Shown here: in pieces, positions 21,913 to 53,253 of the stretch
How the letters are laid out: every line of letters starts with the position of its first letter
How positions within the stretch are numbered: the stretch's first letter is position 1
NCBI GenBank assembly: GCA_021734395.1
Contig: JAIPJB010000001.1
Location: 62,001-126,000 of the forward strand
Reading direction: 5' to 3'
Length of the DNA: 64,000 nucleotides
From: Candidatus Altimarinota bacterium
GTDB lineage: Bacteria > Patescibacteriota > Gracilibacteria > UBA4473
The notes under the pieces: generated by a model
Told to the model about the DNA's origin: nothing
Databases searched by the model: none
What the model saw: the letters and a program-made list of their open reading frames with translations, nothing else
Position numbers and translations under genes: made by a program

Positions 21913-21988
21913 GGGCAAGTAGCTCAGTGGTTAGAGCAGGGCGCTCATAACGCCTTGGTCGCAGGTTCAATTCCTGCCTTGCCCACCA
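21913..21988 (+). tRNA. tRNA with CAT anticodon (probably Ile2, otherwise elongator Met)
   Basis: The acceptor GGGCAAG pairs fully with CTTGCCC, followed by ACCA. The anticodon loop is CTCATAA, giving CAT. The G1-C72 pair excludes the initiator. The D-arm AGCTCAGTGGTTAGAGC and the CTTGGTCGC variable region resemble the lysidine-modified tRNA-Ile2 of other bacteria more than elongator tRNA-Met, so Ile2 is preferred. Its last 34 bases (21955-21988) recur twice downstream. Confidence 0.9.
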
Positions 21989-22253
21989 ATAGAATGAAAC
22001 CGATAATAAAAAAACCGTGCGTTTATATTCTTCAAGGAAAAAGATTTTATGTTGGCTCGACTCAAAATTTGAATCAGCGTATTGAACAACATAAAAATAA
22101 AAATTGCTATACCACAAAACGCATAGGAGAGTGGAAACTCGTTCGAGTTATCTCTTGCAAAACAATGAAGGAGGCTTTGTCTTTAGAACAAAAAATTAAA
22201 AAGTCAGGGCATCCAGAACGTTGGTGCAAAGACAGCTCCGCTGGATAGCGGAG
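21955..22253 (+). mobile_element. Unit 1 of the tRNA-tail/GIY-YIG tandem array (299 bp)
   Basis: The unit begins with the last 34 bases of the tRNA (TTGGTCGCAGG ... CCA), then 5 spacer bases, a GIY-YIG gene and a short hairpin (CTCCGCT-GGAT-AGCGGAG) that ends at the next tRNA-tail copy. Unit 2 repeats it with the same 299-bp period and only transitions as differences. The arrangement equals an insertion at the 3' end of a tRNA gene in which every copy carries its own replacement 3' end. Confidence 0.7.
21994..22248 (+). CDS. GIY-YIG endonuclease-like protein, copy 1
   Basis: An 84-residue single-domain GIY-YIG protein of the UvrC/Slx1-like URI group. CVYIL (9-13) stands for GIY and FYVGS (18-22) for YIG. 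They are followed by the usual RIEQH helix start (about 29-33) and a late EALSLEQKIKKSG helix (about 61-73) with the conserved metal-binding glutamate. The ATG lies only 5 bases behind the tRNA CCA end, with no Shine-Dalgarno. Frames reading through from the tRNA (to 21871) are rejected as starts. Copy 2 differs at two residues. Such a protein could cut at tRNA 3' ends to move the unit, but activity is inference. Confidence 0.8.
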   Translation: MKPIIKKPCVYILQGKRFYVGSTQNLNQRIEQHKNKNCYTTKRIGEWKLVRVISCKTMKEALSLEQKIKKSGHPERWCKDSSAG

Positions 22254-22552
22254 TTGGTCGCAGGTTCAATTCCTGCCTTGCCCACCAATAGAATGAAATC
22301 GATAATAAAAAAGCCGTGTGTTTATATTCTTCAAGGAAAAAGATTTTATGTTGGTTCGACTCAAAATTTGAATCAGCGTATTGAACAACATAAAAATAAA
22401 AATTGCTATACCACAAAACGCATAGGAGAGTGGAAACTCGTTCGAGTTATCTCTTGCAAAACAATGAAGGAGGCTTTGTCTTTAGAGCGAAAAATTAAAA
22501 AATCAGGACATCCAGAACGTTGGTGCAAAGACAGCTCCGCTGGATAGCGGAG
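22254..22552 (+). mobile_element. Unit 2 of the tRNA-tail/GIY-YIG tandem array (299 bp)
   Basis: The tRNA-tail (22254-22287) is identical to 21955-21988. The following gene and hairpin are near-identical to unit 1. No 5' half of a tRNA precedes this tail, so it cannot make a tRNA itself. Confidence 0.7.
22293..22547 (+). CDS. GIY-YIG endonuclease-like protein, copy 2
   Basis: This copy differs from the first by eight base changes within the gene that I can find by eye. All are transitions and six are silent; the two replacements are Pro to Ser at residue 3 and Gln to Arg at about residue 66. All domain motifs are kept. The excess of silent change indicates that both copies have been held to a working protein since duplication. 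As in copy 1, the ATG follows the tRNA-tail CCA by 5 bases. Confidence 0.8.
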   Translation: MKSIIKKPCVYILQGKRFYVGSTQNLNQRIEQHKNKNCYTTKRIGEWKLVRVISCKTMKEALSLERKIKKSGHPERWCKDSSAG

Positions 22553-22586
22553 TTAGTCGCAGGTTCAATTCCTGCCTTGCCCACCA
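22553..22586 (+). repeat. Third copy of the tRNA 3' end
   Basis: This matches the last 34 bases of the tRNA at 21913-21988 with one change (TTAGTC for TTGGTC), again ending in CCA. It closes the array, and no GIY-YIG gene follows. It looks like the far junction of the inserted units. Confidence 0.85.
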
Positions 22587-22598
22587 AAGATCATAGTC

Positions 22599-22618
22599 AT
22601 CTCCGCGGAGGCGGAGAT
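22599..22618. repeat. 8-bp stem hairpin behind the array
   Basis: ATCTCCGC (22599-22606) pairs with GCGGAGAT (22611-22618) around GGAG. It resembles the CTCCGCT hairpin that ends each GIY-YIG unit. Confidence 0.5.
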
Positions 22619-52992: not shown

Positions 52993-53077
52993 GGGTCGGT
53001 AGCGAAGCGGTCAAACGCGGCAGACTGTAAATCTGTTGGCTCAGCCTTCGCAGGTTCGAATCCTGCCCGGCCCACCA
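52993..53077 (+). tRNA. tRNA-Tyr (anticodon GTA)
   Basis: The 85-base sequence has an acceptor stem GGGTCGG pairing with CCGGCCC (one G-U), encoded ACCA, a D-arm with AGCGAAGCGGTCAAACG, the anticodon GTA in the loop CTGTAAA, and a long variable arm, as expected for bacterial tRNA-Tyr. Its last 18 bases are repeated at 53236-53253. Confidence 0.93.
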
Positions 53078-53253
53078 GTACTAAAAAACAGAAGAATTTA
53101 TTTTCTCGTTTTTCTCGTTTTATTCTCTCTGGGAGAAGGATGAGAACCTACGGGTTCGAAGATTTGCACTGAGGAGCAAAGCGACGAGGATGCAAATCCC
53201 TCGAGGAGTCCGCCGCAGGCAGACGTCACGAGAGCATCCTGCCCGGCCCACCA
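53060..53253 (+). repeat. Duplicated tRNA-Tyr 3' end enclosing a 158-bp remnant
   Basis: The last 18 bases of the tRNA (ATCCTGCCCGGCCCACCA, 53060-53077) recur exactly at 53236-53253. The 158 bases between contain an inverted repeat (ATTTGCA with TGCAAAT, about 53163-53198) and no intact gene. The layout is the same as the tRNA-tail/GIY-YIG units at 21955-22586 without the gene, so it may be a decayed copy. Confidence 0.6.

Follow-up and report, generated by a model that had tools for sequence, protein, structure and literature searches.

Introduction

Elements that carry a tyrosine integrase insert at the 3′ ends of tRNA genes, where the tRNA is restored and a fragment of its 3′ end is found at the far side. 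In T-even phages, the endonuclease SegB cuts within tRNA genes at the motif RAWTSGAAC, and tandem tRNA-segB repeats of 718 bp form via homologous recombination (PMC13096335). In fungal mitochondria, an endonuclease ORF (mORF) can enter a gene and bring a replacement for its end, the native end being displaced downstream; this has been described for atp6 of Allomyces and for atp6, atp9, cox2 and nad3 of Glomus, and one of these cases uses a GIY-YIG enzyme (PMC3630166). In the open-access literature we found no description of COG2827/GIY-YIG genes beside tRNA genes in bacterial chromosomes.

Here we analyse a window, i.e. the whole stretch of 64,000 nucleotides under study, from a genome of 1.02 Mb (6 contigs, 43 tRNAs) that belongs with Candidatus Gracilibacteria. 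What resides there behind a tRNA-Met gene recurs at many different tRNA genes of numerous little-studied bacteria. It appears to represent a very widespread and so far undescribed kind of mobile element, which occupies tRNA genes but leaves them intact. Among the relatives used for comparison, G001 is of the same genus and G010 of the same family as the source genome.

Results

Two tandem units behind tRNA-Met(CAT)

A preliminary description, made from the sequence alone, had reported the tRNA, its repeated tails, a period of 299 bp and two GIY-YIG genes separated by eight transitions, of which six are silent; all of this is correct to the base (Table 1). The direct repeat 21955-22253/22254-22552 has 97% identity, and the last 34 nt of tRNA-Met occur in three copies. 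That both genes have been kept functional, as was also claimed, is hinted at by the six silent changes, and the catalytic residues are intact in both copies. Absent from the preliminary description is the perfect palindrome CTCCGCTGGATAGCGGAG, which directly precedes each displaced tRNA-Met tail and contains the stop codon of the unit 1 gene. In the third tail, identity with the intact tRNA-Met stops 1 nt past CCA. The flanks match the cognate tRNA with a score of 68 and non-cognate tRNAs with scores of at most 36. This cognate match, together with the recurrence of the layout at dozens of other tRNA genes, places the arrangement far beyond chance.

The 299-bp unit encodes the GIY-YIG ORF alone, hence no site-specific recombinase. 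A group I intron was not found in the tRNA-Met region of the window, where the tRNA is intact. The array of two units goes back to local duplication, in tandem, of a single inserted unit, and the palindrome ATCTCCGCGGAGGCGGAGAT just beyond it is a possible scar of an older unit. The proposal that the element inserts at the tRNA 3′ end does not agree with the junction: in the window clade, homology breaks at the anticodon arm (nt 27/43 of the tRNA). The replaced stretch is exactly nt 28-42 in L095 (G010) and L130 (a Peregrinibacteria MAG), both of the window nuclease clade.

Table 1. Features of the tRNA-Met locus in the window, and further loci of the source genome with the same layout
Feature	Position	Strand	Basis or remark
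Intact tRNA-Met(CAT), host tRNA of the element	21913..21988	+	ARAGORN; Rfam tRNA 75.4 bits
GIY-YIG gene, unit 1, 84 aa, single domain	21994..22248	+	PF01541 E=1e-13; ORF limits
Palindrome CTCCGCTGGATAGCGGAG, 18 bp, 7-bp stem, junction with displaced tRNA part	22236..22253		takes the place of the anticodon arm
Displaced tRNA-Met nt 43-76, identical to intact gene	22254..22287	+	repeat search; flank comparison
GIY-YIG gene, unit 2, 84 aa, 2 substitutions	22293..22547	+	PF01541 E=9e-14
Second copy of palindrome CTCCGCTGGATAGCGGAG	22535..22552		directly before third tail
Outer end of the element: tRNA-Met nt 43-76 for the third time, with one change	22553..22586	+	repeat search (tail to 22587, 35 nt)
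GC-rich palindrome ATCTCCGCGGAGGCGGAGAT, just beyond the array	22599..22618		palindrome search
(tRNA-Leu nt 1-24)-GIY-(tRNA-Leu)	source genome		tRNA-linked layout
(tRNA-Pro 5′ part)-GIY-(tRNA-Pro)	source genome		tRNA-linked layout
(tRNA-Gln 5′ part)-GIY-(tRNA-Gln)	source genome		tRNA-linked layout

A bare GIY-YIG domain

Both window ORFs match the GIY-YIG domain PF01541 (E about 1e-13), and the catalytic residues Y11, Y19, R29, H33 and E65 are invariant in the alignment. The domain match and the catalytic Y, Y, R, H and E place the proteins in the GIY-YIG nuclease superfamily. An AlphaFold2 model has a pLDDT of 80.7, and among solved structures UPF0213 (1zg2) and the UvrC N-terminal domain (1yd5) are closest in fold. 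A second domain for reading a long target is absent. The sole match in a PHROG search was one endonuclease family (3.8e-4), and a viral scan for the nuclease yielded remote relatives only, none of them with a tRNA nearby.

One subfamily is tied to tRNA genes

The source genome has 13 GIY-YIG matches, and the layout of the window pair recurs at three further loci (Table 1). Small GIY-YIG proteins of 20 relatives fall into three subfamilies, of which only subfamily iii is tRNA-linked with partial tRNA copies; the one gene of its element encodes a single-domain nuclease of 80-100 aa. Subfamily iii is present in 145 of 192 genomes sampled across the phylum, which has to be taken as an upper estimate because the profile, applied with E up to 0.001, also catches some members of other small subfamilies.

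Within subfamily iii, a tRNA gene lies within 350 bp of 83 of the 92 assessable genes, drawn as best-scoring matches and not at random, and all 83 linked genes are on the same strand as the tRNA; tRNA proximity would be expected by chance for about 3% (43 tRNAs in 1.02 Mb). As the profile had been seeded with tRNA-linked members, the fair figure is that outside the seed genomes, where 61 of 69 genes are tRNA-linked, all on the same strand, 39 of them with a cognate copy. In the sister subfamily ii no gene is tRNA-linked (0/31), and in subfamily i 5 of 25 are, none with a tRNA copy. The host tRNAs of subfamily iii comprise at least 16 isotypes. Its members extend beyond Patescibacteria to Bacteroidota and Planctomycetota, and the full layout is seen for members or close relatives in Saprospiraceae, Phycisphaerales, Peribacteria, Peregrinibacteria and Uhrbacteria. 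Many cases of the family at other tRNAs with matching partial copies, which the preliminary description had proposed to look for, thus exist.

No tRNA copy is detectable for 27 of the 83 linked genes, many of which are at tRNA-Ser. The tRNA-Ser members L221, L222, L224, L237, L244 and L246 are mostly without a detectable partial copy; they may have a different junction or be of greater age. At two loci of G057 (L182 and L183), GIY genes lie 107-264 bp past tRNA-Gln with a 15-nt 3′ tail only, preceded by a TTCAGTCAACGAAGC-like sequence in lieu of the usual palindrome. An apparent tRNA-Lys copy spanning two contigs of G001 was discarded, as it is in fact one truncated gene without a tail.

Displaced tRNA copies end at the mature tRNA and carry a palindrome

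Where the intact tRNA lies downstream of the GIY gene, 32 of the 35 upstream copies begin within nt 1-3 of the tRNA; where it lies upstream, 17 of the 21 downstream copies continue to the 3′ end of the tRNA. In most relatives the gene is located 5′ of the tRNA. With most copies 5′-anchored, insertion solely at the tRNA 3′ end is ruled out. In nearly all copies, identity past the mature tRNA end ceases within 0-2 nt, and because it stops there, a target-site duplication of random length is disfavoured. Displaced and intact copies differ by 10 mismatches over 1296 aligned outer bases; tRNAs sharing an anticodon diverge by about 17% among the sampled genomes. Copy length ranges from about 16 nt up to the whole tRNA.

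Of 56 copies, 40 have a perfect, GC-rich palindrome inside them or directly at them, which usually replaces the D or the anticodon arm or is embedded in it. Junctions on the left cluster around nt 23-25, most of them between 16 and 31; taken together, junctions occur between nt 8 and nt 54. Six loci at tRNA-Leu, -Arg, -Met and -Ile genes, with Saprospiraceae (Bacteroidota) among the hosts, have gained the 20-bp palindrome CCTGCCTGCCGGCAGGCAGG by insertion alone, without losing a base. The Saprospiraceae junctions read GGATA[pal]GAGCAAC at Arg(tct) and GGATA[pal]GAGCACC at Arg(acg), i.e. the flanks of the palindrome (pal) fit the local tRNA. In a tRNA-Ile copy of G057, nt 17-77 are identical to the intact gene and the palindrome is the sole difference. 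Insertion of a homing gene should destroy its own target in the filled allele; here the palindrome interrupts the displaced copy, but an intact tRNA persists alongside.

Empty sites and a nuclease tree that follows the target

The site of the window element, topA followed by tRNA-Met, is empty in G012, with the tRNA in the same orientation. In G001 the tRNA-Met at this site is inverted and without element, and in G010 a nuclease of the window clade lies near topA, on the 5′ side of tRNA-Met. Two conserved places in one genus, different from that of the source genome, show reciprocal states: tRNA-Leu(gag) has the element in G039 but lacks it in G030 and G057, and tRNA-Leu(tag) has it in G030 but lacks it in G039, G049 and G057. 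All these comparisons are between species, each represented by one genome. Close relatives therefore have filled and empty alleles at one site, as is characteristic of homing genes.

It is important to note that zero-unit sites had been named in the preliminary description as the test of mobility: an array fixed in one place, never empty and linked to no other tRNA, was to be taken as a local duplication. The empty sites and the family at many other tRNAs answer this test in favour of mobility and rule out local duplication as the sole account. What stands of the original reading is an integrase-free element at a tRNA gene that is left intact; insertion at the 3′ end does not.

The nuclease tree tracks tRNA identity and palindrome type and hardly host family. 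Isotype requires 45 changes on the tree compared with 62.5 after shuffling (0/200 as low) and host family 59 compared with 61.6 (19/200), the tree being built from 78 columns; palindrome class, assigned by eye, requires 14 compared with 33 (0/500). With by-eye classes and a tree of 78 columns single branches are weak; what matters is how tRNA identity and palindrome class compare with host family. A phylogeny that follows the target and not the host is a second characteristic of homing genes.

Remnants and nuclease-free forms

Palindromes of the form TCCGC..GCGGA occur 15 times in the source genome, compared with 2 for a reversed control pattern, and comparison with the tRNA list places about 11 of the 15 within 300 bp of a tRNA. 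Some pseudo-tRNAs have no nuclease gene. At L199 (G000:C1 near 88192), tRNA-Trp has a near-full upstream pseudo-copy with CCCCGCCAAGGCGGGG and no GIY gene. At L191 (G057), tandem tRNA-Val pseudo-copies with the palindrome TCCGCCTAGGCGGA precede an intact tRNA-Val(tac), again without a nuclease gene, in what looks like a non-autonomous form. The remnant palindromes and pseudo-tRNAs suggest that the element has been gained and lost repeatedly.

The window holds another tRNA element, distinct from the GIY-YIG element. Behind tRNA-Tyr (52993-53077), the segment 53078-53253 ends by repeating the last 18 nt of the tRNA exactly (53236-53253), about 160 bp downstream of the tRNA and with no GIY gene in between. 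Such 3′ copies, from about nt 57/58 to CCA, are found at 10 of the 30 source-genome tRNA loci examined; the segments measure 118-187 bp, and a tandem case 301 bp. The Rfam family RtT (RF00391), which is known after E. coli tyrT, matches below its cut-off (23.8 bits vs 45) at window 53119-53253, G000:C1:13889-14023 and G000:C6:190851-190940, and weak matches occur in 8 of 21 related genomes. Judged by these matches, the segments are possibly distant relatives of rtT repeats, present at many tRNAs.

Discussion

From the sequence comparisons, we consider it fairly probable that the unit is a minimal mobile element of tRNA genes, which spreads by a nuclease break and repair from a resident element and which regenerates the tRNA intact. 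Judging by the junctions, the nuclease would cut or nick tRNA genes of the identity it prefers, somewhere between the D arm and the anticodon arm. The break would be repaired from the resident element, the two tRNA halves serving as homology, and the gene would arrive with a replacement for one tRNA half. In the resulting layout, the nuclease gene stands between the intact tRNA and the displaced half, which is anchored exactly at the mature end and bears a clade-specific palindrome at the junction. The palindrome would destroy the target within the displaced copy, and the same-strand arrangement would allow the tRNA still to be made by read-through transcription. In the window, the unit would then have been duplicated in tandem between identical tRNA tails. 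The element may thus work like a homing endonuclease gene, with a putative cleavage step, although we do not assign it to that class. Since the presumed target persists in the intact tRNA, the element must somehow escape its own nuclease. Other points against homing are the linked genes without a copy (27/83) and the scatter of junctions.

The near-identity of displaced and intact copies also speaks against the homing account. If the replaced halves derived from a donor, they should often mismatch, considering how far tRNAs of one anticodon differ between genomes; the duplicated half may hence come from the host. A likewise mobile element that duplicates the host's own tRNA part, with nicking both at the end of the tRNA and within the D/anticodon region, gap filling or copying of a processed RNA, and the palindrome inserted in the reaction, similar to the target duplication of a transposon, is thus a serious rival, even though we regard it as rather unlikely. 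Both copies fit the host tRNA almost perfectly, as do the palindrome flanks at the two Saprospiraceae tRNA-Arg genes; the duplicated part starts or stops at the mature end, and CCTGCCTGCCGGCAGGCAGG was purely inserted at all six loci. On the other hand, the element encodes no transposase, no reverse transcriptase and no terminal repeat, the copies vary in length, and exact mature-tRNA ends are unusual for nick-and-fill duplications.

The palindrome could also be the mobile or recognised unit, as in REP/RAYT systems, with the GIY-YIG protein as its enzyme and tRNA genes as favoured landing sites. Palindrome class indeed tracks nuclease clade (14 changes vs 33 expected) more tightly than isotype does (24 vs 37), and palindromes without a GIY gene lie near tRNAs, some in solo pseudo-tRNAs. 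Such co-segregation is equally expected if the palindrome merely rides inside the element, and with 7 GC-rich palindromes in the 64 kb of the window, they are rare, unlike REPs, which rules out ordinary REPs for the source genome. REP/RAYT systems pair high-copy palindromes with a Y1 transposase; here the palindromes are rare and the nuclease is of the GIY-YIG type. We hold this explanation to be improbable. Still less credit can be given to a non-mobile, vertically inherited and locally duplicated host gene that is co-transcribed with tRNAs and acts in tRNA processing, repair or defence. The strict same-strand linkage would suit co-transcription, and the window array is itself a tandem duplication, but reciprocal empty sites within one genus, linkage to so many isotypes, a nuclease phylogeny that ignores host family, the occurrence of the gene on either side of the tRNA and the displaced tRNA halves contradict it.

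Returning to a mobile element of tRNA genes, we tentatively raise the possibility that it represents an undescribed chromosomal type of about 0.3 kb, among the smallest autonomous ones, which by a mechanism other than classical homing, and with a bare GIY-YIG domain, duplicates a part of the tRNA, marks the copy no longer in use by putting a clade-specific palindrome where a tRNA arm would be, retains the intact tRNA and has spread through most of Patescibacteria as well as to other phyla. Patescibacteria commonly have small GIY-YIG genes, one subfamily of which now clearly resembles a tRNA-gene parasite. It may account for duplicated or broken tRNA genes in these genomes, as well as for small proteins with reading frames that extend into tRNAs. 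The natural series of elements of about 0.3 kb, with sharp junctions, clade-specific palindromes and isotype preference, makes it directly testable how a bare GIY-YIG domain picks one tRNA gene among forty.

Comparison with known systems

Proteins of the UPF0213/YhbQ type (PDB 1zg2, 1ywl) and the UvrC N-terminal domain (1yd5) share the fold and the catalytic residues, whereas the YhbQ-like subfamily i has no displaced tRNA copies in this data set. Integrase elements likewise restore the tRNA gene and leave a fragment of its 3′ end on the far side. In contrast to them, the present element has no integrase, measures 0.3 kb, has its junction in the D and anticodon arms and is commoner on the 5′ than on the 3′ side. 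The fungal mORFs are a precedent, in structure, for the displaced gene end. They differ in that they reside in mitochondrial protein genes and not in tRNA genes, lack a palindrome tag and replace the 3′ end only, whereas either end is concerned here; moreover, their replacement ends are diverged donor sequence (64-81% identical), while the copies described here are nearly identical (PMC3630166). SegB and the other free-standing GIY-YIG homing endonucleases of T-even phages are alike in that the gene lies beside tRNA genes of many isotypes (PMC13096335, PMC2988022), and SegB provides a biochemical precedent for the cutting of tRNA genes and for tandem repeats. The present family would link this phage biology to bacterial chromosomes. 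It differs from SegB in its location, chromosomes instead of phage genomes, and in its displaced pseudo-tRNA with a palindrome, which the parts of the SegB description consulted do not report; furthermore, it encodes nothing more than a bare GIY-YIG domain, and its clades each favour a particular tRNA identity.
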